Below are positions 1-14,229 of a DNA stretch of 64,000 nucleotides, piece after piece. Numbering within the stretch: the first letter of the stretch is position 1; each line of letters opens with the position of its first letter. The notes below the pieces were generated by a model. The model was not told the origin of the DNA, did not search any database, and saw nothing but the letters and a program-made list of their open reading frames with translations. The DNA comes from Acidithiobacillus thiooxidans ATCC 19377 (lineage in GTDB: Bacteria > Pseudomonadota > Gammaproteobacteria > Acidithiobacillales > Acidithiobacillaceae), in NCBI RefSeq assembly GCF_009662475.1, contig NZ_CP045571.1, forward strand, positions 1,424,501 through 1,488,500. The letters are read 5' to 3'. The position numbers were made by a program, and so were the translations under genes.

Positions 1-2889
1 AAATTTGCCGATGAGTGGTTACCTGTACGAGCGGGCACCGATGCTGCGTTATTTCTAGCAATGGGTCATGTGGTATTACAGGAATTCTTTTTGCAAAAAA
101 GGACATCCTATTTTCAAGATTATGCAAGACAATTCACTGACCTGCCGATGCAAATACTATTAAGACCGTTGGATGATACCCGATACACCAGCGATCGTTT
201 TTTACGGGCCTCTGATTTTGATAATCAGCTGGGTCAAAATGAAAATCCCGAATGGAAAACTATCGTTTATGATACGAAAAGCGAGAGTTATCGATGCCCC
301 AAAGGATCCATAGGTTTTCGGTGGAGTCAAACTGAGGGTAACTGGAACCTGCTACAAGAAGATGCGACAACGAACGAATACATTGAGGCAGAATTATCCT
401 GCTTAGGTTTACAAGATATCGTGCTCCAAGTGGTTTTTCCTGATTATGGCAATAGTGACGGCCAAGCAAAGCTGGTTGAACGCAAGATCCCGGCGCGCCG
501 TTTACAAACTACGCATGGTGAACAATTTGTTTGTTCCGTCTTTGATCTGTTGCTTGCACAATATGGCGTCAACCGTGCCGAAATCGAAGGCACGACCGAT
601 GCAAACTATACAGATAGCAATCAGCTTTTCACTCCAGCTTGGCAGCAAGGCATTACCGGTATTCCACAAGAGAATTGCATAAGAATCGCGCAAGAGTTTG
701 CGGAAAACGCCGTGCTTACACAAGGGAAGTCCATGGTGATTGTCGGTGCCGGAACCAATCATTGGTACCATAACGATATGAATTATCGGTCAATTATTAA
801 TCTTGTGCATCTTTGTGGATGTGTTGGTCAAAGTGGCGGAGGCTGGGCACATTATGTTGGTCAGGAAGCACTTCGACCCCAGGCTGGGTGGTTACCTTTG
901 GCTTTTGCTGGCGACTGGCATCTACACTCGCGCCAAGCAGCGGGGACTAGTTACTGGTATTTACATACGGACCAATGGCGCTATGAGCGCGTCACCGCTG
1001 ATAGCCTCATGCATCCTGCCGCAAAAGCCAGCTACAAAGGCCACACATTGGCAGATTACAATATTGTGGCCGAGCGTTTGGGATGGCTTCCCGCCGCACC
1101 CCACTTTCAAAGTAACCCATTAGATATCGCCGAAGCCGCCAGCCAGGATTCAAAAGGTGTTGCGGATTATGTTGCTCATGAACTTCATAACGGACACCTC
1201 ACTTTTGCCAGTGAAGATATTGACCACCAAGAGAATTGGCCGCGCAATCTGTTCGTCTGGCGCAGTAACCTGATCGGTACCAACGCGAAAGGTCATGAAT
1301 ACTTTCTCAAGCATCTTCTCGGGGCCGAAAATGCCGTGCTGGGAGAAGATGGCTCGGGCAGAGCTTCGCAAGAAATCCAGTGGCACGAGAAAGCCCCCGT
1401 TGGCAAGCTGGACTTAATGATAGATATCAACTTTAGGTTAAATAGCACTGGGGCCTATGCGGATATTATCCTGCCAACGGCTACATGGTACGAAAAGGAC
1501 GACCTGAACACCACAGACATGCATCCCTTCATCCACCCTCTTGGTGCTGCAGTGGATCCAGGTTGGGAAAGTCGCAGCGATTGGCAGATTTTTCGGCATT
1601 TAGCCAAAAGCTTTTCAACACTTGCTGAAAAACATCTCGGGAAAAGAAAGGATTTGCTTGCTATTTCACTACTTCACGATACCCCTAATGAGCTGGGACA
1701 AGCTGTGGGAGTCAGCGATTGGAAACGTGAAGGAAAAATTCCAGAGCCTGGACGTACTTGTCCAAATTTTGAAATTGTGGAACGTGATTATCCGCATATT
1801 TATGAACAGTACAGCAGCATTGGACCGCTGCTGGCCACTCACGGCAATGGTGCAAAGGGCGAGCATTGGGAGACCGGGCAAGAAATTTCGGAATTGCTGG
1901 CGATTAACGGAACATTCCCTTCTTCAGGAAAGGGTAAAGAAGACGCTCGTCCCTCCCTTGAGAGTGATATCAACGCATGCAATATGGTTCTTCATCTCTC
2001 CCCGGAGACTAACGGAGAAGTGGCGCATAAAGGATGGCTGTCGTTGAGCACCAAAACTGGACTTTCTCTAACCAAACTTGCCAACGATCGCCGGGGTGAG
2101 AAATTTAGCTTTCATGACTTGCAAGTACAACCCCGAAAGGTGATTTCATCTCCTTCATGGAGTGGTCTGATGTCGGAAGAAGTCAGTTACAATGCTGGAT
2201 ATGTAAATGTGCACTATGCCACGCCCTATAGAACACTCACCGGACGTGGTCAGTTTTATCTGGATCATGAATGGATGTTGGATTTTGGTGAAGGTCTTTG
2301 TACCTATCGCCCGCCTTTAACCACACACGCCGTCGCAGGCTTGCCTGAGGCCATCGCCCAACAGGGTGGCATCGTATTACGGTTTCTTACGCCACACGAC
2401 AAATGGGGTATTCATAGCACCTATCATGACGATTTGCGCATGATGCACCTTTCCCGAGGGGGTCCACATATCTGGCTCAGCGAGAAAGATGCCGATCAGC
2501 TTAAAATATCTGATAACGACTGGTTAGAAGCAGTTAATGAAAATGGTGCCCTTATGGCACGTGCGGTGGTGAGCCAACGCATTCCAGAAGGGGTGGCCAT
2601 CATGTATCACCAACAGGAAAAAACACTGAATGTTCCAGGTGCGCCAAGCACAGGTAAACGTGGTGGCATCAATAACAGTGCTACTCGGGTGATTGTCAAA
2701 CCGACCCATATGATCGGTGGCTATGCACAACTTGCCTGGACACTGAATTATTATGGACCTGTCGGAAGTCAGCGCGATGCTGAAGTACTGATTCGCAAGG
2801 TAGACGATGCGCAAATCTCGTGGATGGAAAAGCAGTTAGGCCCGGATCTAGAGACAGAACTGCGTCAAGCAGTGGAGGAAAGTCAATGA
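1..2889 (+). CDS. narG: Respiratory nitrate reductase alpha subunit NarG, 5' end outside the window
   Basis: Catalytic molybdenum (bis-MGD) subunit of the membrane-bound quinol:nitrate oxidoreductase, reducing nitrate to nitrite on the cytoplasmic face. The frame is open from base 1 (KFADEWLPVRAGTDAALFLA) before the first Met, so the gene starts upstream; about 962 residues remain of the ~1240 usual for NarG. The N-terminal [4Fe-4S] motif and Mo-ligand Asp lie upstream and cannot be checked. Visible family blocks include GGGWAHYVGQEALRPQ, WRSNLIGTNAKGHEYFLKHL, DIILPTATWYEKDDLNTTDM and, near the C-terminus, YFGPVG-like LNYYGPVGSQRD. The stop overlaps the narH start by 4 bases, so the subunits are translationally coupled. 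Confident call from family conservation and operon order. Confidence 0.97.
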   Translation, partial: KFADEWLPVRAGTDAALFLAMGHVVLQEFFLQKRTSYFQDYARQFTDLPMQILLRPLDDTRYTSDRFLRASDFDNQLGQNENPEWKTIVYDTKSESYRCPKGSIGFRWSQTEGNWNLLQEDATTNEYIEAELSCLGLQDIVLQVVFPDYGNSDGQAKLVERKIPARRLQTTHGEQFVCSVFDLLLAQYGVNRAEIEGTTDANYTDSNQLFTPAWQQGITGIPQENCIRIAQEFAENAVLTQGKSMVIVGAGTNHWYHNDMNYRSIINLVHLCGCVGQSGGGWAHYVGQEALRPQAGWLPLAFAGDWHLHSRQAAGTSYWYLHTDQWRYERVTADSLMHPAAKASYKGHTLADYNIVAERLGWLPAAPHFQSNPLDIAEAASQDSKGVADYVAHELHNGHLTFASEDIDHQENWPRNLFVWRSNLIGTNAKGHEYFLKHLLGAENAVLGEDGSGRASQEIQWHEKAPVGKLDLMIDINFRLNSTGAYADIILPTATWYEKDDLNTTDMHPFIHPLGAAVDPGWESRSDWQIFRHLAKSFSTLAEKHLGKRKDLLAISLLHDTPNELGQAVGVSDWKREGKIPEPGRTCPNFEIVERDYPHIYEQYSSIGPLLATHGNGAKGEHWETGQEISELLAINGTFPSSGKGKEDARPSLESDINACNMVLHLSPETNGEVAHKGWLSLSTKTGLSLTKLANDRRGEKFSFHDLQVQPRKVISSPSWSGLMSEEVSYNAGYVNVHYATPYRTLTGRGQFYLDHEWMLDFGEGLCTYRPPLTTHAVAGLPEAIAQQGGIVLRFLTPHDKWGIHSTYHDDLRMMHLSRGGPHIWLSEKDADQLKISDNDWLEAVNENGALMARAVVSQRIPEGVAIMYHQQEKTLNVPGAPSTGKRGGINNSATRVIVKPTHMIGGYAQLAWTLNYYGPVGSQRDAEVLIRKVDDAQISWMEKQLGPDLETELRQAVEESQ

Positions 2890-4448
2890 AAGTACGTGCA
2901 CAATTTGCTCTCGTTTTTAATCTAGATAAGTGCATCGGTTGTCATACATGCTCGGTGACCTGCAAAAATACCTGGACCAACCGTCGAGGAACGGAATATA
3001 TCTGGTTCAATAATGTCGAAACCAAACCAGGAATAGGTTATCCCAAAAACTGGGAAAATCAGGACCAATGGCATGGCGGGTGGATATTGAAGAATGGTAA
3101 GTTATCCTTAAAACAAGGTGGTCGTTTCTGGGAGCTGATGACTATTTTTGCCAATCCACATTTACCCGAGATTTTGGACTACTACGAACCTTTTACGTAC
3201 GACTATGCACATCTCCTCAATGCACAATTATCAGAAACAGCACCGGTCGCACGCCCAGTTTCACTGGTGAGCGGTCAGGTTATGGAAAAAATTGAATGGA
3301 GTGCGAACTGGGAAGATCAATTGGGTGGTACTTATCAAACGCGATCTGTCGATTACAATCTTAGAGATGTCCCAGGCAAAGACCTTTTGGGGGAATTCGA
3401 GAAAACCTTTCTTTTTTATTTACCACGCATGTGTAACCATTGCTTAAATCCGGCCTGCGTTGCTGCGTGCCCTTCTGGGGCCATTTATAAACGAGAAGAG
3501 GATGGCATTGTTCTCATTGATCAGGATCGCTGTCGCGGTTGGCGTATGTGTATCTCTGCGTGCCCATATAAAAAGGTATATTTCAATTGGGACTCCGGTA
3601 AATCGGAAAAATGTATTGCTTGCTATCCCCGAGTTGAATCAGGATTGCCAACTATCTGCTCAGACACCTGTGTGGGGCGTATCCGTTACAATGGCATTAT
3701 GTTGTACGATGCGGACCGCATTGCTGAACTGGCCGGCACGACTGAAGAACAGGATCTTTATGAAGCACAAATGAACATTTTTCTTAACCCGCACGATCCA
3801 GAGGTAATCGCACAAGCACGCCTCGATGACGTTCCTGATTCATGGATTGATGCAGCACAGCGCTCGCCTATTTACAAAATGGCGATGGACTGGAAAATAG
3901 CACTACCTTTGCATCCTGAATTCCGAACCCTCCCCATGGTCTGGTATATCCCACCTTTATCACCTATGGGGCGCGAAATATCACCACGAAATATTCCCAG
4001 TAAGGCAGAGGACATAATTCCACGCTTGGAATCATTGCGTATACCAATCGACTATCTAGCCAGTCTTTTTACGGCGGGGAACCATAAGCCAGTAATCGCA
4101 TCGTTGAAAAAACTCATTGCTTTGCGAGCCTATCAGCGCAGTCTACATGTTCAAGGCGTGCCTAATACAGAGGTTTTAGACGGAGCCGATTTGGACGAGG
4201 CCACCGCTCAGGATATGTATCGGTATCTGGCCATAGCCAATTATGAAGATCGGTTTGTGATCCCTACCAGCCATCAGGAAACCATGATGGATGATCCATA
4301 CGATTTTCAAGGACAAAATGGCTTTGTGTTTGGTAACGAAAGTAGTGTGGGTATCAGCGCTGGAGAGCTATTCCCAAGGCGTCGCAAAGAAACACCAGCG
4401 GCGAACGTGCAGCCGCTCCATTTCGTTCGGCACCGGGGAAACGTATGA
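2886..4448 (+). CDS. narH: Respiratory nitrate reductase beta subunit NarH
   Basis: Electron-transfer subunit carrying four Fe-S clusters that wires NarI haem to NarG. 520 aa from ATG 2886, chosen because GGAGG lies just upstream and the ATG overlaps the narG stop (ATGA); a longer in-frame extension into narG is unlikely. Four cysteine clusters are visible: CIGCHTCSVTC near residue 16, CNHCLNPACVAACP near residue 184, CRGWRMCISACP near residue 217 (the Trp in place of a Cys marks the [3Fe-4S] site of NarH) and CIACYPRVESGLPTICSDTC near residue 244. The end overlaps narJ by 4 bases. Length and motifs match canonical NarH. Confidence 0.98.
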   Translation: MKVRAQFALVFNLDKCIGCHTCSVTCKNTWTNRRGTEYIWFNNVETKPGIGYPKNWENQDQWHGGWILKNGKLSLKQGGRFWELMTIFANPHLPEILDYYEPFTYDYAHLLNAQLSETAPVARPVSLVSGQVMEKIEWSANWEDQLGGTYQTRSVDYNLRDVPGKDLLGEFEKTFLFYLPRMCNHCLNPACVAACPSGAIYKREEDGIVLIDQDRCRGWRMCISACPYKKVYFNWDSGKSEKCIACYPRVESGLPTICSDTCVGRIRYNGIMLYDADRIAELAGTTEEQDLYEAQMNIFLNPHDPEVIAQARLDDVPDSWIDAAQRSPIYKMAMDWKIALPLHPEFRTLPMVWYIPPLSPMGREISPRNIPSKAEDIIPRLESLRIPIDYLASLFTAGNHKPVIASLKKLIALRAYQRSLHVQGVPNTEVLDGADLDEATAQDMYRYLAIANYEDRFVIPTSHQETMMDDPYDFQGQNGFVFGNESSVGISAGELFPRRRKETPAANVQPLHFVRHRGNV

Positions 4449-4996
4449 GTATCTTTCATCAACCCATTTTGCACGTTGTGGCACTGCTACTGGATTATCC
4501 AGACGACGAACTCCTACAGAACCTACCAGAGATCGCCTTCGCACTAGAATCACTAGACAATGCGCACAAGAAAGAAGTTATTATGTTGCACGATCATATA
4601 AAGTGGATGCAAAGTCTGGCCCCTTTGCAATTAGAAGCTTTATATGTGAATACATTTGACTGGAATCCCAGTTGCGACCTGCATCTGAGTAATCACATCC
4701 TTCCTGAGGATGATCGTGGCCGAGGCGACGTTCTCGTCCGACTTCTTGAATACTACTCTACTTATGGATGGGCTCCAGGTGCTCGGGCGTTGCCAGACTT
4801 CCTACCTGTTGTTTTGGATTTCGCGGCAACCTTAGAGATAGAGGAGTCTTACATCTTTCTGAGCAGCGCAGACGAAAGTATTCAGATATTGCGAAACAAT
4901 CTTTCAGAAATACAGAGTCCCTATGCCCGTTTATTAGAACCAGTACTGTATCGCAGTCATTTTCTTTCACCTATTTCATCAGGAGTTTCTGTATGA
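4445..4996 (+). CDS. narJ: Nitrate reductase molybdenum cofactor assembly chaperone NarJ
   Basis: System-specific chaperone of the TorD/NarJ type that holds apo-NarG until molybdenum cofactor and Fe-S cluster insertion; cytoplasmic and not part of the final enzyme. 183 aa, somewhat short for the family. Typical features are the hydrophobic N-terminal block HVVALLLDYPDDELLQNLPE and the central NTFDWNPSCDLHLSNHI, close to the YVxTFDxxxxxxLyLtyf signature of NarJ. ATG 4445 overlaps the narH stop and its own stop overlaps narI, so it sits in a tightly coupled four-gene unit. Little doubt given family motif and position. Confidence 0.95.
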   Translation: MSIFHQPILHVVALLLDYPDDELLQNLPEIAFALESLDNAHKKEVIMLHDHIKWMQSLAPLQLEALYVNTFDWNPSCDLHLSNHILPEDDRGRGDVLVRLLEYYSTYGWAPGARALPDFLPVVLDFAATLEIEESYIFLSSADESIQILRNNLSEIQSPYARLLEPVLYRSHFLSPISSGVSV

Positions 4997-5691
4997 TCTG
5001 GTCTTGGAATACCTTCTTGTTTGGCATCTATCCTTACATAGCCGGAACAATATTCTTGTTGGGTTCAATTATTCGCTATGAACGTGAGCAAGCTGGCTGG
5101 ACTAGCTATTCCAGCCAGATTTTAGCATCGAAACGCTATATGATGTGGGCGAGTAATCTCTGGCATATAGGCATACTGACGCTTTTTCTCGGACATTTTA
5201 CGGGATTTCTGACCGACATCCTGGAATGGCTAGGTTTAGATCCTGTCGAGCATCAATGGCTTGCTGCTAGCGCAGGTATCACAGCCGGAGTGGTGGCAAT
5301 GGTTGGTGGAGTTATGCTTTTATTACGCAGAGTGCTTGATCCAAAAGTACGTTACGCTAGTCGCCCTATGGATATTATTATATTAGTATGGTTATTGATC
5401 ACACTTTGCTTTGGTTTGAGCACCCAATTCATCAGTGTGCCCGAAGTGATTCATGATCATGTCCAAAATATGGAAATACTTATTCATTATGTTCGAAGTA
5501 TTGCCGAGTTTCAAGCCAATCCGCAACTCATTATAAACATTCCATTGATCTATAAGGTGCACATGTTTTGTGGATTTACTGTATTTCTCCTTTTTCCTTT
5601 CAGTAGGCTTGTGCATATATGGACCGTACCATTAAATTATGTTGTCAGGCCTTATCAGTTGGTACGCTCAAAGATTCGTTCCGTCGTTTAA
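4993..5691 (+). CDS. narI: Respiratory nitrate reductase gamma subunit NarI (cytochrome b)
   Basis: Membrane di-haem b subunit that oxidises quinol and passes electrons to NarH. 232 aa from ATG 4993, which follows AGGAGT and overlaps the narJ stop; upstream in-frame sequence within narJ is rejected as a start. Five hydrophobic segments are visible, beginning FLFGIYPYIAGTIFLLGSII. Candidate haem-ligand histidines occur in the second helix (WHIGILTLFLGHFTGF) and in the last helices (VHMFCGFTVFLLFPFSRLVH). Length agrees with E. coli NarI (about 225 aa). Last gene of the narGHJI overlap chain; narK follows after 77 bp. Confidence 0.97.
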   Translation: MIWSWNTFLFGIYPYIAGTIFLLGSIIRYEREQAGWTSYSSQILASKRYMMWASNLWHIGILTLFLGHFTGFLTDILEWLGLDPVEHQWLAASAGITAGVVAMVGGVMLLLRRVLDPKVRYASRPMDIIILVWLLITLCFGLSTQFISVPEVIHDHVQNMEILIHYVRSIAEFQANPQLIINIPLIYKVHMFCGFTVFLLFPFSRLVHIWTVPLNYVVRPYQLVRSKIRSVV

Positions 5692-5768
5692 TAGAGAGAA
5701 TACATCTTCTATTAAAGCGGAATCGTTTGGGAAAATTCGATTAATCATTATTATAGAATGGAGGTAAC

Positions 5769-7076
5769 GTGGGAGCCACCCAACCCACAGTAACCGGATC
5801 GGCCAACCGCGCATTAATTGGCGCAACCATAGGATTTTTTATTGGTGCAGGGTCTGTTTCCCTGTTTGGGCCAACCGCACACATCTTTCTGAAAGCTATG
5901 CACCTGTCTCCCCAACAAGTGGGACTATTGGTAGCTATGCCTATGCTCACTGGATCCCTGCTGCGCATACCCTTTGGTGCATCTGTTGACAGGAATGGTG
6001 GTCGATTACCCTTTCTTGTATTGCTAATTGCATCCGTTATTGGTATTGCCGGGCTTTATTGGATGCTTCTGACGCTATATCCGAATCATCTTACGGAAAA
6101 ATACTATCCGATGCTATTAACCTTTGGTGCACTAGCAGGGTGTGGAATTGCCACATTCTCTGTTGGTATTGGACAGGTATCGTATTGGTACTCAAAAAAG
6201 AAGCAAGGATGGGCGCTCGCCGTTTTTGGTGGACTCGGTGATTCATCACCAGGATTTGTTGTCTTGATATTGCCGGCTGTTATTATGACCGTCGGCCTTT
6301 GGGGTGGGTATTTATTTTCCTTGGCAATTATTATCGTTGGAATAATAATTTATTACCTCATGGGATTGAATGCACCATATTACCAATTCTATAAACGAAA
6401 CCATGATACTGCTCGTGCTACTGAGGAAGCCAAAAAGTACGGTCAAGAGCTTTTTCCTACTGGCGGAACCTGGCATACGCTCCTTTTATCGGCAAAGCAT
6501 TGGCGGACCTGGCCTCTAGTTATTCTGTATTTTACAAATTTTGGCGGATTTCTTGCATTAACTGCATGGTTGCCTATTTTCTGGCAAACGTATTTTCATG
6601 TGGGTGCATTTCATTCCGTAGTGCTTACTGCGGTATTTTCATTAATTGCAGCATTTATTCGTGTTTATGGTGGAAAATTGTCTGACGAGATGGGTGGCGA
6701 AAAGACCGCAGTTATTTCGCTGATTGTATTGCTAGTTGGATCTGTAATTATGACTTTTTCCAGCTTGTTATGGTTAACCATCATTGGGGAAATATTGGTT
6801 GGTGCGGGTATGGGGGTGAATAATGCTGCGGTGTTTAAACTGGTTCCACATTACGTGCCAGATGCTGTAGGTGGTACTGCGGGTTGGGTCGGAGGATTGG
6901 GGTGTCTTGGTGGTTTCGCAATTCCTCCGATACTAGGAGATATCGTTGCATTAGTGGGTATCAACGGCTACGCCTTAGGTTTCGGTATATATATTATATT
7001 ATCCATCTTATGTTTGTTATTGGTTTGGTTGCTGTATAGAACCAGAGCAAATCTCACGGCACATCTCAGTCGCTGA
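5769..7076 (+). CDS. narK: Nitrate/nitrite transporter, NarK-type major facilitator
   Basis: Inner-membrane MFS carrier of the nitrate/nitrite porter family, expected to bring nitrate to NarG and/or export nitrite. 435 aa with about 12 hydrophobic segments. The start is GTG 5769, chosen because GGAGG ends five bases upstream and no good ATG exists nearby. Family-like blocks are FFIGAGSVSLFGPTAHIF in helix 1, FGGLGDSSPG in the first half and GWVGGLGCLGGFAIPPILG in the second half, which correspond to the glycine-rich nitrate-signature helices. Position directly after narI supports the assignment; direction of transport cannot be told from sequence. Confidence 0.93.
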   Translation: MGATQPTVTGSANRALIGATIGFFIGAGSVSLFGPTAHIFLKAMHLSPQQVGLLVAMPMLTGSLLRIPFGASVDRNGGRLPFLVLLIASVIGIAGLYWMLLTLYPNHLTEKYYPMLLTFGALAGCGIATFSVGIGQVSYWYSKKKQGWALAVFGGLGDSSPGFVVLILPAVIMTVGLWGGYLFSLAIIIVGIIIYYLMGLNAPYYQFYKRNHDTARATEEAKKYGQELFPTGGTWHTLLLSAKHWRTWPLVILYFTNFGGFLALTAWLPIFWQTYFHVGAFHSVVLTAVFSLIAAFIRVYGGKLSDEMGGEKTAVISLIVLLVGSVIMTFSSLLWLTIIGEILVGAGMGVNNAAVFKLVPHYVPDAVGGTAGWVGGLGCLGGFAIPPILGDIVALVGINGYALGFGIYIILSILCLLLVWLLYRTRANLTAHLSR

Positions 7077-7262: not shown

Positions 7263-7820
7263 ATGATATGGAATAATTACTTACTAAACAGCCTGCACAG
7301 AGTTTGTACTTTTGAGGTATTGAATCAAGCGTTCACACGTAGAAGCAGATCTGCAACGACAATCAAAGCCGCAAAAGAAAAGCCTACGAAATGGCTTATA
7401 ACCATTCTGCTTTGTTATTCACTATTGCTCAGTTATGGGGTGGCGTGGGCCGCCAATGAGCCTGCTTGGGGCCACGGACCTTACCGAATGCTCTTTGAAG
7501 TCGACTCAGCAAAACCATCAGCGTGGACGATGACTCTTGGTGCAGTCACTCACATCGTCCACAAGGTCGGCATTCCACCTGCCCGGTTGGAAGTGTTGGC
7601 CTGGGGGCCTGGCCTGCAAATGCTCTTAAAGAATGCTCCGGATGCCATGGAAATTACCATTTTACAGATGCGTGGAGTTCGTTTCGTAGCCTGTCAAACA
7701 TCCATGCGTCGGCTGCATATTACGGCGCGTCAATTAGCTCCCGGAGTGAATGTAGTGGCTGGAGGCATGGCAGAGCTGATGAAACGTCATAATGAAGGTT
7801 GGGCCGAAGTCAAAATGTAG
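7263..7820 (+). CDS. Exported DsrE-like protein
   Basis: 185 aa. After a long N-terminal tail there is a hydrophobic stretch WLITILLCYSLLLSYGVAWA ending in an AxA-type signal peptidase site (VAWA-AN), so the mature ~115-aa domain is probably periplasmic; translation might start later than ATG 7263. The mature part (RMLFEVDSAKPSAWTMTLGA, then LEVLAWGPGLQMLL, GVRFVACQTSMRR and a Gly/Val-rich end) has the pattern of the DsrE/DsrF-like family, including the single conserved Cys in the FVACQ context. Members act in sulfur transfer, but many relatives near nitrate genes have no known role. Function here is open; fold assignment is reasonable. Confidence 0.65.
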   Translation: MIWNNYLLNSLHRVCTFEVLNQAFTRRSRSATTIKAAKEKPTKWLITILLCYSLLLSYGVAWAANEPAWGHGPYRMLFEVDSAKPSAWTMTLGAVTHIVHKVGIPPARLEVLAWGPGLQMLLKNAPDAMEITILQMRGVRFVACQTSMRRLHITARQLAPGVNVVAGGMAELMKRHNEGWAEVKM

Positions 7821-7949: not shown

Positions 7950-8468
7950 ATGTCACTTTTTGTTACTGCTCCTGACTTTGATGATCCTATTGGTCTACTG
8001 CTGGCCTGTCATAACAAAATTTTGAGCCATTGCGAAACACTGGAACAGTTGCCTGCACATCTGGTCAGTCACGGACCAGATGAGGAAGCCAGGCAGGCTG
8101 CTGGGCGTGTCCTCAAATATTTCTGTCAGGCTGAACGCCTTCATCATGACGATGAAGAACAAAATCTTTTCCCTTTACTCACTGCTTACCCCGATTTTCC
8201 AGAAAACCTACGCGCCCCCTTACACAATCTGAGCCTACAGCATCGTGATCTAGAAAAAGCATGGTCAAAACTTTCTCAAGATCTGGAAGCGATAGTGGCC
8301 GGGAAAGAAGTTCATCTTTCTCCAACCGCTTTCATCGCTATGAATCGCGCCCACATTATCCTCGAAAACAATGAAATCTTTCCCGTAGCCCTACAATTGT
8401 TGTCGAGGGATACCCTGGTCGAAATTGGTGCGGCCATGCGAGCACGTCATGTCGGGCCACTCACATAA
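7950..8468 (+). CDS. Hemerythrin-like (HHE) protein
   Basis: 172-aa four-helix protein of the HHE cation-binding family, likely binding a di-iron centre. Candidate ligands are the His of LLLACHNKIL, the HHDDEEQNLFP block (H-H...E), the His of SLQHRDLEKAW, and NNEIFPVALQ near the C-terminus. AAGGAG lies seven bases before ATG 7950. Such proteins (compare YtfE/RIC and DnrN relatives) act in NO or oxygen sensing, storage and Fe-S repair; that is family knowledge, not shown here. Its place between nar genes and a globin gene favours a nitrosative-stress role. A second HHE protein occurs at 10483. Confidence 0.85.
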   Translation: MSLFVTAPDFDDPIGLLLACHNKILSHCETLEQLPAHLVSHGPDEEARQAAGRVLKYFCQAERLHHDDEEQNLFPLLTAYPDFPENLRAPLHNLSLQHRDLEKAWSKLSQDLEAIVAGKEVHLSPTAFIAMNRAHIILENNEIFPVALQLLSRDTLVEIGAAMRARHVGPLT

Positions 8469-8523: not shown

Positions 8524-8565
8524 TTGACCAAAGTCAAGGAATGTCCAATGATAGTTCGTTACACT
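8524..8565 (+). promoter_or_regulatory. FNR/NNR-type operator and promoter of the globin gene
   Basis: TTGACCAAAGTCAA (8524-8537) is a perfect TTGAC-N4-GTCAA palindrome of the CRP/FNR (FNR/NNR/DNR) type. Its centre at 8530.5 lies 41.5 bases before an expected start near 8572 if the hexamer TACACT (8560-8565) is the -10 box. This is the classic class II FNR geometry. The globin ATG follows at 8630 with GAAGGAG upstream. The palindrome and spacing are directly visible; the identity of the regulator is inferred. Confidence 0.75.
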
Positions 8566-8629
8566 GGGGCCGTAGCACACAAGTAGGCATCTGTCTTCAT
8601 TTGTTTCATATAGAAGGAGTAACCAATAA

Positions 8630-9091
8630 ATGAGCATTAATATTCAACTGATCCAGTCCAGTGGTGCAGCTGTGAAAGACCTGGGTGTTCAGGTTGCCGA
8701 GCACTTTTATAATTATATGTTTACGCATTTTCCGGAAGTCCGGAAAATGTTTCCGGGAGACATGACCGAACAACGTATTCGGCTTTTTAATTCGGTCATT
8801 CTGATTGCGACCACTATCGACAATCTGGAAGTGTTGGTCCCCTATCTGAAAGAACTGGGCATTTCACACATCAAATATGATACGCGTCCGGAACATTATC
8901 CCATCGTCGGTAAAAGCCTGCTCAATACCCTGAAACATTTTCTGGGAGCTGCCTGGACTCAGGAAATGGCAGAATCCTGGATTGAGGCCTATAACCTCGC
9001 TTCCACGGTATGTATTGAGGCCGCCTATGAGGCAATGGCCCCTTCCCGTTTTGTCCCGGTCACCATCGACGACGTTCCGCCTGCTGTGTGA
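8630..9091 (+). CDS. Single-domain bacterial globin (flavohaemoglobin haem-domain type)
   Basis: 153 aa, the length of one globin domain. AEHFYNYMFTHFPEVRKMFP matches the B/C region of flavohaemoglobin and Vitreoscilla globin, and RPEHYPIVGKSLL carries the proximal His (F8) in the same context as Hmp. Hmp itself would continue with an FAD/NAD reductase; here the protein stops and a separate reductase gene follows 59 bp later. Likely role is NO dioxygenation (NO plus O2 to nitrate) or oxygen/NO binding with that partner. Controlled by the FNR-type site upstream. Family assignment is secure; the partnership is inference from gene order. Confidence 0.9.
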   Translation: MSINIQLIQSSGAAVKDLGVQVAEHFYNYMFTHFPEVRKMFPGDMTEQRIRLFNSVILIATTIDNLEVLVPYLKELGISHIKYDTRPEHYPIVGKSLLNTLKHFLGAAWTQEMAESWIEAYNLASTVCIEAAYEAMAPSRFVPVTIDDVPPAV

Positions 9092-9150
9092 TTCGAGCAT
9101 ACCGGTGGCGCAAGGATATTTCCGCTGCGCCACGCTGATGAGGTGACGCC

Positions 9151-10131
9151 ATGGAATACGAAATTTGTCTGGAGCCCTCCGGTGTCCGCTTCAAGGCGGA
9201 TGAAAACCAGAATATTGTCGAAGCGGCAAAAGCCCATCATGTGGCCATTAAACATGGATGCGCCAGCGGTTCCTGCGGAGATTGCAAGGGCACCATCCTG
9301 TCCGGAGAAAGTGAGCAAGGACCCTTCATGCCCCTGCTTTTATTGCCAACCGAGCGCGCTGCGGGCATGGCCATTTTGTGCAAGCTATATCCGCGCAGTA
9401 ATCTGCGGCTGCAAGCTGAAGTGATTTCCGGGGACATCTGGAATACTGAAATTGTGGGGTTGAGCAAACTGGCCTGGAATGTGCTGGAACTGCGGTTACG
9501 GCCGGAAAAACCCTATCCATACCGAAGCGGGCAATATGCACGGATGGCCGTGCCGGGACAGGAAAATCAATGGCGTTCCTACTCCATGGCCACCCCTCCG
9601 CAGGACTGGGGCGAGTTGGTTTTTCATATTCGTGAACTTCCGGGTGGTCTGTTCAGTCGCTGGCTTTTTTACCGGGCACAGCCCGGCGAAGTAATCACGC
9701 TCGGACCGCCACAAGGAGACTTCGCCCTCCAGGATAATACGCGGCCCCTGCTTTGTATTGCCGCAGGAACGGGATTGGCACCCATTGAAGCCATCATTCA
9801 GGAAAGTATGCACACAGGGCAAACCCGCCCGATTCATCTTTTTTACGGCGCCAAAAAAAAGCGGGATTTTTATCATCTGGAAACACTGCAGCAATGGGCC
9901 GGACAGTATGCCCATTTCACTTTTACACCCACCATTTCCGATGGCGAAGATACGCAGTGGAAAGGTGCCCGCCGTCTTCTGCCCACGGTGGCAGCCAACG
10001 GCCACTGGCAGGATCATGAAGTGTATCTGTGTGGCGGACCCGGCATGATAGAAGCGGCCATCGATCTCCTGCGTTCTCATGACGTGCCTCATGCGCACAT
10101 ACACTTTGACTCTTTTGCGCCCAACGGTTAG
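9151..10131 (+). CDS. NAD(P)H oxidoreductase with N-terminal 2Fe-2S ferredoxin domain
   Basis: 326 aa in three modules. Residues ~1-90 are a plant-type ferredoxin with CASGSCGDC and a later Cys in AILCKLYP; ~95-190 are the FAD-binding domain with RSYSMA (the RxYS flavin motif) and GGLFSRWLF; ~195-326 are the NAD-binding domain with IAAGTGLAPI and the CGGPGMIEAAI block. This matches the electron-transfer components of multicomponent oxygenases. ATG 9151 follows GAGGTGA. Directly behind the globin gene, it is the obvious candidate to reduce the haem iron, giving a two-polypeptide equivalent of flavohaemoglobin with an added 2Fe-2S centre. Physical interaction is inferred only. Confidence 0.88.
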   Translation: MEYEICLEPSGVRFKADENQNIVEAAKAHHVAIKHGCASGSCGDCKGTILSGESEQGPFMPLLLLPTERAAGMAILCKLYPRSNLRLQAEVISGDIWNTEIVGLSKLAWNVLELRLRPEKPYPYRSGQYARMAVPGQENQWRSYSMATPPQDWGELVFHIRELPGGLFSRWLFYRAQPGEVITLGPPQGDFALQDNTRPLLCIAAGTGLAPIEAIIQESMHTGQTRPIHLFYGAKKKRDFYHLETLQQWAGQYAHFTFTPTISDGEDTQWKGARRLLPTVAANGHWQDHEVYLCGGPGMIEAAIDLLRSHDVPHAHIHFDSFAPNG

Positions 10132-10151
10132 CGCGATTGGAGGAGATGAAG

Positions 10152-10397
10152 ATGAAAGTACAAATTCTGGTCTCGAAATGGTGCCCGGTTTGCCCGCAGG
10201 CTGAAGCAGTATGGAAACAAGCTGCGGAAAAGGTGCCGATGGAACTGCAGGTACTGGATGTGGCGGATCGCGAAGGGCGCGAAATCGTCAGCAATCTGCG
10301 CATTAAAACGGTCCCGGCCATTGTCGTGGACGGTGCCCTGAAGACAGTAGGCGCACAGCCTCTGGGCGAAGTGCTGAAAATGCTCGGCGCCCAATGA
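10152..10397 (+). CDS. Small thioredoxin/glutaredoxin-fold protein
   Basis: 81 aa with a redox-type motif WCPVCP near residue 11 and the cis-Pro loop VPAIVVDG around residue 57, both hallmarks of the thioredoxin fold. ATG 10152 is preferred over an ATG six bases earlier because GGAGGAG sits at proper spacing. It follows the reductase by 20 bp, so it is probably co-transcribed. The Pro after the second Cys is unusual for classical thioredoxins. Possible roles are thiol repair or S-denitrosylation, but the substrate cannot be inferred from sequence. Confidence 0.8.
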   Translation: MKVQILVSKWCPVCPQAEAVWKQAAEKVPMELQVLDVADREGREIVSNLRIKTVPAIVVDGALKTVGAQPLGEVLKMLGAQ

Positions 10398-10482
10398 ATA
10401 CAAGCTCCTGAATGCGCCTGAACAAAGCTTCGGCCACGTTCATGTCCCGTAGAAACACACCACAACCTTTTTGGAGAATGCC

Positions 10483-10941
10483 ATGACACCCATAGATCAG
10501 ATCATGCAACAGGACCATGAACGCCTGGATCAACTTTTGGAGCAAAGTGCCCAGGCTGTCCGCCAAGGCGCATGGCAGGAAGCTGCGCAGTTCCTGGAAG
10601 CCTTACGCCACGGCATTGTTGATGGTCATATGGTCGTGGAAGAAGGCACCTTATTCCCTGCCTTCGAGCTACAGGAAGGTAGCGAAGATCATCCTCTGAC
10701 TGCGCTACTCCGCAAGGGGCATCAGGATCTGCGGGTGTTTTTTGAAGAAATGGCGGAGGCCATTGCAGACCAAGACGCCGAGACCTTTGACGATCTGCTG
10801 AGTACCGTCCAAACCATTCTCAAACAACACGATGCCAAGGAAGAAACCGAACTTTATCCCTATCTGGCTAGCGCGTTGGCGGATCAGGGTGAAGCTGCGG
10901 GAAAACGTATTCTCGACTTTGAGGCGGAGGCCACATCATGA
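10483..10941 (+). CDS. Second hemerythrin-like (HHE) protein
   Basis: 152 aa, HHE four-helix bundle. Candidate iron ligands are His in IMQQDHERLDQLLE, HMVVEEGTLFPAFE, the His of LRKGHQDLRVFFEEM, and HDAKEETELYPYL. The motif pattern H...H..E..(L)FP...H..L...H...E is typical. ATG 10483 follows GGAGA; it is the fourth codon after a possible TTG start that is less likely. Its stop overlaps the next gene (10938) by 4 bp, so it is coupled to the lipoyl protein. It differs clearly from the protein at 7950, so this is not a recent duplication. Confidence 0.85.
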   Translation: MTPIDQIMQQDHERLDQLLEQSAQAVRQGAWQEAAQFLEALRHGIVDGHMVVEEGTLFPAFELQEGSEDHPLTALLRKGHQDLRVFFEEMAEAIADQDAETFDDLLSTVQTILKQHDAKEETELYPYLASALADQGEAAGKRILDFEAEATS

Positions 10942-11384
10942 GTGAATATAATGGTTGTGAACTGCCTGAAGACCTGTTTTATGATCTCGATTATGTCTGG
11001 GTGCGCCCGGAAGAAGACGGTACGCTGACAATTGGCGTCACAGACCCTGCGCAGACCATGTCGGGCCGCCTGCAAAAAGCCCGCATTAAAAAAACCGGCA
11101 CACATCTGGAGGCCGGACGGCATGTGGCTACGCTGGAAAGTGGCAAGTGGGCAGGCGGCGTACCCGTGCCCTTTGCCGGTGAAGTCATTGCCCGCAACGA
11201 GCAATTGTTGGAAGACCCGCACCTGATCAATATTGATCCTTACAAGGACGCCTGGATTGCCCGCGTCAAACCGGATGATCCCCAACATGCCCTGGACAAC
11301 GTGAAAACCGGCAGTGAGGCTATTGAAGCACTGGAGGCCTGGATCAAACGCTATGGGGTGCAGTGTATGCGCTGTTCGGAATGA
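10938..11384 (+). CDS. GcvH-like lipoyl-domain protein
   Basis: 148 aa related to the H protein of the glycine cleavage system. YVWVRPEEDGTLTIGVTDPA matches the GcvH N-terminal region and the lipoylation segment is ATLESGKWAGGVPVP with the acceptor Lys at about residue 70. No gcvT or gcvP is near. Sulfur oxidisers with the sHdr pathway use GcvH-like lipoate-binding proteins (LbpA), and an HdrB-like gene lies 7.6 kb away, but the present neighbours are NO-stress genes. The C-terminus CMRCSE carries an extra CxxC not expected in GcvH. Whether it serves sulfur oxidation or dithiol chemistry in stress defence is open. Confidence 0.8.
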   Translation: MSEYNGCELPEDLFYDLDYVWVRPEEDGTLTIGVTDPAQTMSGRLQKARIKKTGTHLEAGRHVATLESGKWAGGVPVPFAGEVIARNEQLLEDPHLINIDPYKDAWIARVKPDDPQHALDNVKTGSEAIEALEAWIKRYGVQCMRCSE

Positions 11385-13092: not shown

Positions 13093-13652
13093 TCATGGAA
13101 AGCCCCGGACGCAAGGGGTGTTCCGGTTGTGTAGTGTTGCATCCTTTTTGCTGCTTAAGTGGCTGTTGGCGCGAATGACCTTTTGCAGGATGTCGCGGGC
13201 GGTTTTGGTCCAGATGAAGGGTTTGGGATGGGTGTTGTGGTGGTCGATGTACCCCTCAATGGCCTGGATGAGTTCAGGCACACTGGTGAACACCCCACGA
13301 CGTAACCGCTGGGTCGTGATATCCCGAAAGAAACGCTCGACCATGTTGAGCCAGGATGCTGAAGTGGGCGTAAAGTGCATGTGAATACGCGGGTGCTTGT
13401 CGAGCCACGCCTGTACTACCGGGTGTTTATGGGTCGCATAGTTGTCGGCAATCAGATGCAGAGCCTTGTCCTTGGGCGTCTGCCGATCAATTTTCTTCAG
13501 GAACTTCAGCCATTCCACATGGGTATGGCGCTGTTGACACTGTCCGATGACCTGACCATCCAGCACGTTGAGTGCGGCAAACAAGGTCGTAGTGCCATTA
13601 CGTTTGTAGTCGTGGGTCATCGTTTCTGCGCGGCCCTTTTTGAGGGGGAGAC
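13093..13652 (-). pseudogene. IS630-family transposase, C-terminal portion
   Basis: Encodes the second half of an IS630/Tc1-mariner-type DDE transposase: [20 protein letters not shown], the second catalytic Asp in [12 protein letters not shown], and the catalytic Glu in [12 protein letters not shown]. The first catalytic Asp region is missing because the frame joins directly to a foreign MFS-transporter sequence at about 13650. No upstream IS end is present, so this is a deletion product. Adjacent on the other side are other IS fragments. Confidence 0.85.
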
Positions 13653-14188
13653 ACATAAAACGGCCAGCGCCAACCGGTGCTGTCGGTGATCCAGCCACCG
13701 ATAAATGGACCCAGGGTAAAGGGCGTGAGCGCAGCGATCCCCCACAAGCTCAGACCGATGTTACGGCGATGTACTTGGATAGTGGCGCAGGATAATCTGC
13801 AAAGATCCCGGAATGGTCAATCCACTCGGGAACCCCTGAACAATACGGGCAATCAGAAAGATGTCATAATCATTCGATTGGGCACAGATGGCTGAAGCCA
13901 GGGCGAATACGATAAAAGCCCCTGCCAAAACCCGCATTTCCCCCCAGCGCTGCAAAAACCAGGGAGAAGTCGGAAAGGCCAGGGCCATGGCGAGAAAAAG
14001 TCTGACTGGGTCCAAATCGCAAAGTCCGGGTTGACGCCCAGACTCCCGGCAACATGGGGTATCATGGGCAGATAGGCACCGGTGTTTAATAATACCAGAA
14101 AATATCCGAGCCCGATCACCAGATTCAACAGCAGTACCATGCCGGTGCTGAGTGGAGAAACTGCCGAAGCATTATGTGAAAAAGCCAT
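13653..14188 (-). pseudogene. DHA2-type (EmrB-like) MFS efflux transporter, broken N-terminal part
   Basis: Three reading frames joined in order match the first ~170 residues of an EmrB-like 14-helix drug exporter: VIGLGYFLVLLNTGAYLPMI, then LIARIVQGFPSGLTIPGSLQ, then [20 protein letters not shown] and GWITD...WRWPFY. Frameshifts are needed near 14013 and 13766. At about 13650 the gene is cut and fused to the IS630 fragment, so the remaining ~300 residues are lost. A probable start is ATG 14188. Dead gene. Confidence 0.8.
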
Positions 14189-14229
14189 GAACAGGAAATC
14201 GCTTATATGCTGGTGAATTAAACGCACCG

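Follow-up and report, generated by a model that had tools for sequence, protein, structure and literature searches.

Organization of the locus

The window, i.e. the whole 64-kb stretch of DNA analysed here, encodes a globin and, starting 59 nt after the globin stop codon, a separate reductase with [2Fe-2S], FAD and NAD domains, as the original prediction had described and as ORF coordinates and Pfam matches bear out. The pair and its surroundings comprise the following features, all on the forward strand:

2820..7076, +: narH-narJ-narI and a gene for a NarK-like transporter, with narG before them (NCBIfam narH, 6.6e-247; NarK family, 6.1e-45)
7950..8468, +: second hemerythrin (HHE) gene, just upstream of and outside the box-controlled unit (Pfam, 1.4e-12)
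8524..8537, +: FNR/DNR-type box TTGACCAAAGTCAA, centred at 8530.5, identified from the sequence and conserved upstream of orthologues
8560..8565, +: -10 element TACACT, 22 nt after the box, identified from spacing conservation; predicted transcription start at about 8572
8614..8619, +: ribosome binding site AAGGAG of the globin gene, identified from the sequence
8630..9091, +: single-domain F-type globin, 153 aa (ORF and Pfam)
9105..9133, +: intercistronic hairpin GTGGCGCA...TGCGCCAC, between the globin stop and the reductase start
9151..10131, +: [2Fe-2S]-FAD-NAD(H) reductase, 326 aa (ORF, Pfam and NCBIfam, MmoC/BenC-like)
10149..10397, +: thioredoxin/glutaredoxin-like protein, 82 aa (Pfam Thioredoxin_3, 5.6e-13)
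10483..10941, +: hemerythrin (HHE) protein, 152 aa (Pfam, 5.8e-18), a conserved neighbour
10938..11384, +: GcvH-like lipoyl carrier, 148 aa, whose gene overlaps the hemerythrin gene (Pfam GCV_H, 6.3e-33), a conserved neighbour

Within the nar block, which is conserved as a whole at locus L007 and is a probable source of nitrite, narJ and narI were named from their position. Between narK and the upstream hemerythrin gene (7263-7820) is the gene of a small protein that weakly resembles DsrE and seems to begin with a membrane or signal segment. The thioredoxin-like, hemerythrin and GcvH-like genes that follow the pair (10149-11384) are often conserved with it; the thioredoxin-like gene is inverted in some species, absent from next door in others, and in places carries an FNR/DNR-type box of its own (L018, 9485). 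The lipoyl carrier is puzzling company in what would be an NO-stress cluster.

The globin and its haem pocket

The 153-residue protein matches the Pfam Globin family (9.5e-16), and its top matches come from Acidithiobacillus concretivorus (100%) and A. sulfurivorans (99%). Among solved chains, Vitreoscilla haemoglobin (VHb) is the closest (1vhb, 4.5e-19), with Hmp at 4.3e-17 (1gvh). In the helix numbering of Hmp and VHb, the characteristic residues are TyrB10 (residue 27), PheCD1 (41), GlnE7 (48), LeuE11 (52), HisF8 (80) and TyrG5 (90), all of which are invariant in an alignment of the Acidithiobacillaceae and Leptospirillum-like globins; the haem-pocket residues likewise line up with those of a Lysinibacillus Hmp and a Paraclostridium globin. 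As a stand-alone chain with TyrB10, GlnE7, HisF8 and TyrG5, the protein belongs to the single-domain F-type globins of the VHb/Cgb kind.

The pocket is also Hmp-like, in agreement with the earlier assignment to the Hmp haem-domain type, with a sole departure: the column of GluH23 holds alanine (Ala132) in the window, in the Acidithiobacillales and in the Leptospirillum-like copies. As a residue of the proximal network, GluH23 is known for VHb and Hmp, rather than as a demonstrated requirement of all members. In VHb, this network consists of HisF8, TyrG5 and GluH23, and changes of TyrG5 abolish the NO dioxygenase activity (PMC8306070); TyrG5 is retained in the window globin.

The reductase and its kinship

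Pfam detects the domains Fer2, FAD_binding_6 and NAD_binding_1 in the downstream protein. Its cluster ligands Cys37, Cys42, Cys45 and Cys77, its FAD motif RSYS (142-145) and its NAD motif GTGLAP (206-211) are invariant in all eight of the orthologues aligned. Against the NCBIfam models it scores 188 bits for MmoC, 179 for BenC and 87 for Hmp, each score lying below the curated cut-off of its model (432 bits in the case of Hmp), and the solved chains that it matches are reductases of P450, carbazole, benzoate and methane mono-/dioxygenases. An N-terminal plant-type ferredoxin, the FAD and NAD domains, the cluster ligands and the RxYS motif place it with the MmoC/BenC kind, although such reductases are encoded with their oxygenase and the neighbour here is a globin.

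Hmp, by contrast, is one fused chain without a 2Fe-2S domain. Here, a stop codon separates the two ORFs, the genes are separate in all orthologues, and the reductase carries Fer2, a difference from Hmp that had been pointed out correctly before. The term ‘split flavohaemoglobin’, under which the pair was originally described, is nevertheless a misnomer: since the reductase is nearer to MmoC and BenC than to Hmp in its NCBIfam scores, we rule out an origin from a split Hmp. Judged by its sequence, it is a separately recruited MmoC/BenC-like partner of the globin rather than a reductase part detached from an Hmp.

Conservation of the gene pair

Of 29 Acidithiobacillaceae genomes searched, 26 contain the globin. 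Defined by an identity of 76% or more, the orthologous globins of this family number 36. In 35 cases, the orthologous reductase gene is the next one downstream, in the same orientation; the distance to it from the last globin codon is 61-93 nt, except for two cases with 265 nt. The exception is one copy in A. ferriphilus (G004:C143, locus L021), where the globin stands alone; orthologous reductase matches without a globin amount to only two, both of them partial and one at a contig end. The order includes a second family, and both of its matched genomes have the pair as well. In a class-wide sample of 369 genomes, globin matches of 1e-59 or better and reductase matches of 1e-108 or better occur in this order only and are paired every time. 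Outside the order, the sample shows a gap, with globin matches no stronger than 2e-28 and reductase matches no stronger than 5e-74. None of the eight weaker globin matches in the class (2e-28 to 6e-26) has a relative of this reductase adjacent to it, and the BenC-like proteins found across the class, at 1e-62 to 1e-74, represent a separate paralogue that the source genome of the window has as well.

The original prediction had proposed a search for the pair in other genomes and regarded a reductase that consistently accompanies an oxygenase, together with a globin found alone, as evidence against itself. We observe the opposite, namely complete orthologous reductases directly behind the globin. 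No oxygenase gene was seen beside the orthologous reductases at the loci looked at, and we reject the idea that the reductase partners an oxygenase elsewhere, having found no such case among the orthologues.

The globin also occurs in six Nitrospirae MAGs, which we take to be Leptospirillum-like, the genus being our own assignment. There it is 59-61% identical and has no such reductase adjoining it, and the only matches elsewhere in these genomes are to the FAD/NAD domains (24-31% identity). Because these genomes keep the globin without it, not every host requires the reductase. In the same MAGs (L025-L030), the globin lies beside glycine-cleavage and rhodanese genes.

These Leptospirillum-type globins, the oxygenase-reductase character of the enzyme and the conservation of thioredoxin-like, HHE and GcvH genes nearby could all be taken to mean that the reductase chiefly feeds one of these three proteins, or an unlinked oxygenase, and that the globin is reduced by other means. 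We consider this improbable, since constant adjacency, with the partner directly upstream, is seen for the globin only; the thioredoxin-like gene, for instance, does not keep its place, and an oxygenase gene is missing beside the orthologues that we looked at.

Promoter architecture

The predicted transcription start at about 8572, set 12 nt past the first base of the -10 element, puts the centre of the box at -41.5. Within the window, TTGAYNNNNRTCAA occurs a single time, with 0.45 occurrences expected by chance, so that it is not unusual alone. Conservation, however, sets it apart: a box, typically cTTGACCgaaATCAAGG, lies upstream of all 23 Acidithiobacillaceae loci for which upstream DNA is available, and a TANNNT element follows exactly 22 nt past it at 21 of these 23 loci, or in nine of ten non-redundant upstream regions, a result that none of 5000 shuffles reached. 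While a single box could be due to chance, its conservation and the fixed spacing to the -10 element indicate that the class II FNR-type geometry is real in silico, and the earlier placement of the box exactly 41.5 bases before the start predicted from TACACT is thereby upheld. The Nitrospirae globin copies have TATGAT-N4-ATCATA in the same upstream region.

A consensus scan lists precisely the pair TTGACC and AATGAT, 17 nt apart, in this region, and TTGACC at 8524 could thus be an ordinary sigma-70 -35 hexamer with a coincidental palindrome around it. Conservation leads us to reject this as highly improbable: both half sites of the box are retained in all Acidithiobacillaceae loci, and it is the TANNNT element at 22 nt that is conserved, not the hexamer at 17 nt.

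The source genome has 22 sites of the box pattern, compared with 7 of the reversed pattern. Three of the 22 precede its three globin copies, another is at the beginning of a DUF2249-like ORF, either shortly ahead of it or already inside it, and most of the others are inside coding sequence.

The probable regulator and its signal

Where the sequence around an Acidithiobacillales globin reaches far enough, most loci also contain a DNR-like Crp/Fnr gene; loci L064, L075 and L078 have it, too. Its product carries an E..SR recognition helix, and among solved relatives with a named function, DNR of P. aeruginosa is the closest (3dkw, 2.6e-29). Two marks of a DNR regulon are thus present, a DNR-type box and, at most loci, a dnr-like gene close by; the window copy itself has no such gene adjoining it, and the source genome encodes it beside its third copy of the pair. 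Plasmid p1 of A. ferrooxidans carries boxes of this kind as well: one, with TATTGT at +22, stands before hcp, and another stands before a DUF2249-hemerythrin unit. As hcp is an NO-stress gene, this ties the box to NO stress. A search for Hcp in the source genome found none.

The regulator is therefore likely to be a DNR-type, NO-responsive Crp/Fnr protein, and with a DNR-like gene beside most copies, the expected signal would be NO and not low oxygen alone. Of the two inducers named before, low oxygen or NO, the evidence thus points to the second. Low oxygen may nevertheless act through an FNR-like protein that the source genome also encodes; this protein has an E..SR recognition helix and three of the cysteine positions typical of FNR, and the box suits FNR as well as it suits DNR. 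Control by such an iron-sulfur regulator in place of DNR and NO, which would leave the function of the enzyme the same, strikes us as unlikely, however, because the genomic neighbour of the pair is the DNR-like and not the FNR-like gene, and because the FNR-like protein lacks the third N-terminal cysteine.

The intercistronic hairpin

A stem-loop is present in the gap between the globin and reductase genes of every Acidithiobacillaceae clade looked at, with sequences that are unrelated between clades. Computed for single sequences, the z-scores are all negative, at about -1.0 to -3.1, and reach -9.4 for the highly structured 265-nt gap of A. sulfuriphilus (L017:6460-6724, -140 kcal/mol), compared with -0.6 to +1.3 for six control stretches of the same operons. 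The alignments within clades contain no compensatory two-sided changes; all substitutions that keep a pair are one-sided and of the G-U type, a few pairs are broken, and we therefore reject covariation as support for the hairpin. The short gap in a genome of the sister family (L065) has no evident hairpin. By analogy with other intercistronic hairpins, from which we infer its role, the structure may cause more globin than reductase to be made.

Gene copies in the source genome

The cassette occurs three times in the source genome (at 1433130, 2375203 and 2570103; L001, L031 and L032), and the encoded proteins are 97-100% identical. Copy 2 is preceded by a second nar operon and followed by ParA/ParB-like genes, and copy 3 lies behind an EmrB-TolC-EmrA-like efflux operon. 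Apart from these three copies, no Hmp-like globin was found in this Acidithiobacillus genome, which consists of one 3.4-Mb contig. At 13093-14227, the window contains an IS630-like transposase ORF on the minus strand, followed by a truncated fragment of an EmrB-like MFS protein; its counterpart in copy 3 is intact (L032, 4837-6381). The transposase and the truncated fragment suggest a rearrangement at the window copy and the loss of the DNR-like gene next to it.

Proposed function

We consider it reasonably probable that the locus encodes a two-protein NO dioxygenase, that is, a globin fed by its reductase, under NO-sensing control of the DNR type and perhaps with a hairpin that favours globin over reductase. 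The enzymatic part of this reading was already put forward in the original prediction and stands as the most likely function. It is favoured by the pairing of 35 of the 36 orthologues, the residues of the haem pocket, the cofactor motifs, the box with its -10 element and the DNR-like gene, as well as by the box shared with hcp, the lack of a further Hmp-like globin, the nar operon upstream of the window copy and of copy 2, and an agreeing published prediction (PMC1274295).

In the proposed mechanism, NADH would reduce the FAD of the reductase, from which electrons would pass to its [2Fe-2S] cluster and on to the haem in the separate globin chain. In its oxy form, the globin would oxidise NO to nitrate and then be re-reduced. 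NO would form in acid from nitrite, produced by the neighbouring nitrate reductase or supplied from outside; the DNR-type Crp/Fnr regulator would sense it, bind the box at -41.5 and recruit RNA polymerase in a class II manner, and the intercistronic hairpin might keep globin output above that of the reductase.

Evidence against this reading comes from the Leptospirillum-like globin without a reductase, the lone globin at L021 and the replacement of GluH23 by Ala132. A further point is transcriptional. The A. ferrooxidans gene AFE_0861 is presumably an orthologue, and from position and order we take the genes of Bellenberg et al. to be the first and third of the operon. Expression of AFE_0861 rose most in cells of pyrite biofilms; the authors ascribed this mainly to oxygen/ROS control (PMC6450195), and read in this way, the rise counts against an NO dioxygenase.

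The globin might instead serve in oxygen handling, by delivery to an oxidase or by buffering of free O2, as proposed for VHb, with a reductase that keeps it ferrous and with NO removal as an incidental activity. VHb is its closest solved relative, and FNR-type sites occur at the vgb promoter, too (PMC8306070). The DNR-type regulator and the occurrence of the same box before hcp, however, point to NO, and we regard oxygen handling as the unlikely main role. TyrB10 and GlnE7 in combination with a dedicated reductase also fit NO dioxygenases, as is established for Hmp.

A more specific version of the two-protein NO dioxygenase is conceivable, but we hold it to be rather doubtful: an oxygenase-type 2Fe-2S reductase would be the native electron donor of a globin that lacks GluH23, the two would form the dedicated haem NO dioxygenase of the order, and a hairpin conserved in structure but not in sequence would set their ratio.

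Relation to known systems

The arrangement is a confirmed instance of a published prediction and not a new one. Rodionov et al. (2005) predicted an A. ferrooxidans operon, cgb-COG0543-COG0446 with a DNR site, to be an NO-detoxifying system, and reported two dnr paralogues (PMC1274295). With the operon and its DNR-type control predicted then, the value of our analysis lies not in discovery but in order-wide support and a sharper test; a literature search found no experimental test of the predicted operon. Added here are the pairing throughout the order, the promoter spacing, the hairpin, the loss of GluH23 and the Leptospirillum-type globin without a reductase. The long-standing adjacency of the globin and one particular reductase within the order makes for a clean and directly testable pair, which may account for the ability of iron- and sulfur-oxidising bioleaching bacteria to withstand the nitrite-derived NO that they face in acid.

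Like the window, the operon of Rodionov et al. combines a globin, a flavoreductase, a DNR-type box and a predicted role in NO detoxification (PMC1274295). It differs in its COG0446 gene, in place of which the window has the thioredoxin-like, HHE and GcvH genes, and in that the window copy, one of three in its genome, has no adjoining dnr. Locus L078, with the globin, this reductase, a COG0446-like oxidoreductase (read from the sequence) and a dnr-like gene nearby, has the arrangement described by these authors.

Other systems share individual features. According to work cited in PMC3820574, Legionella pneumophila has an NO-regulated bicistronic operon of GlbN and a ferredoxin reductase, i.e. 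likewise a globin with a separate partner of the ferredoxin-reductase type, but its globin is truncated and controlled by NsrR, whereas the window has an F-type globin and DNR-type control. Cgb of Campylobacter jejuni is, as here, a single-domain globin under a regulator of the Crp/Fnr family, NssR, and protects against NO; the NssR box TTAAC-N4-GTTAA, however, has a different half site (PMC1274295), and the sources cited here mention no reductase paired with Cgb. Hmp has a homologous globin domain and the same expected reaction, but is one polypeptide without a 2Fe-2S domain, in contrast to two proteins with a reductase of the MmoC/BenC type. Finally, VHb shares the single-domain F-type fold, as the closest solved structure, and an FNR-type regulatory site, while the window globin has alanine for GluH23 and a dedicated reductase gene directly downstream.
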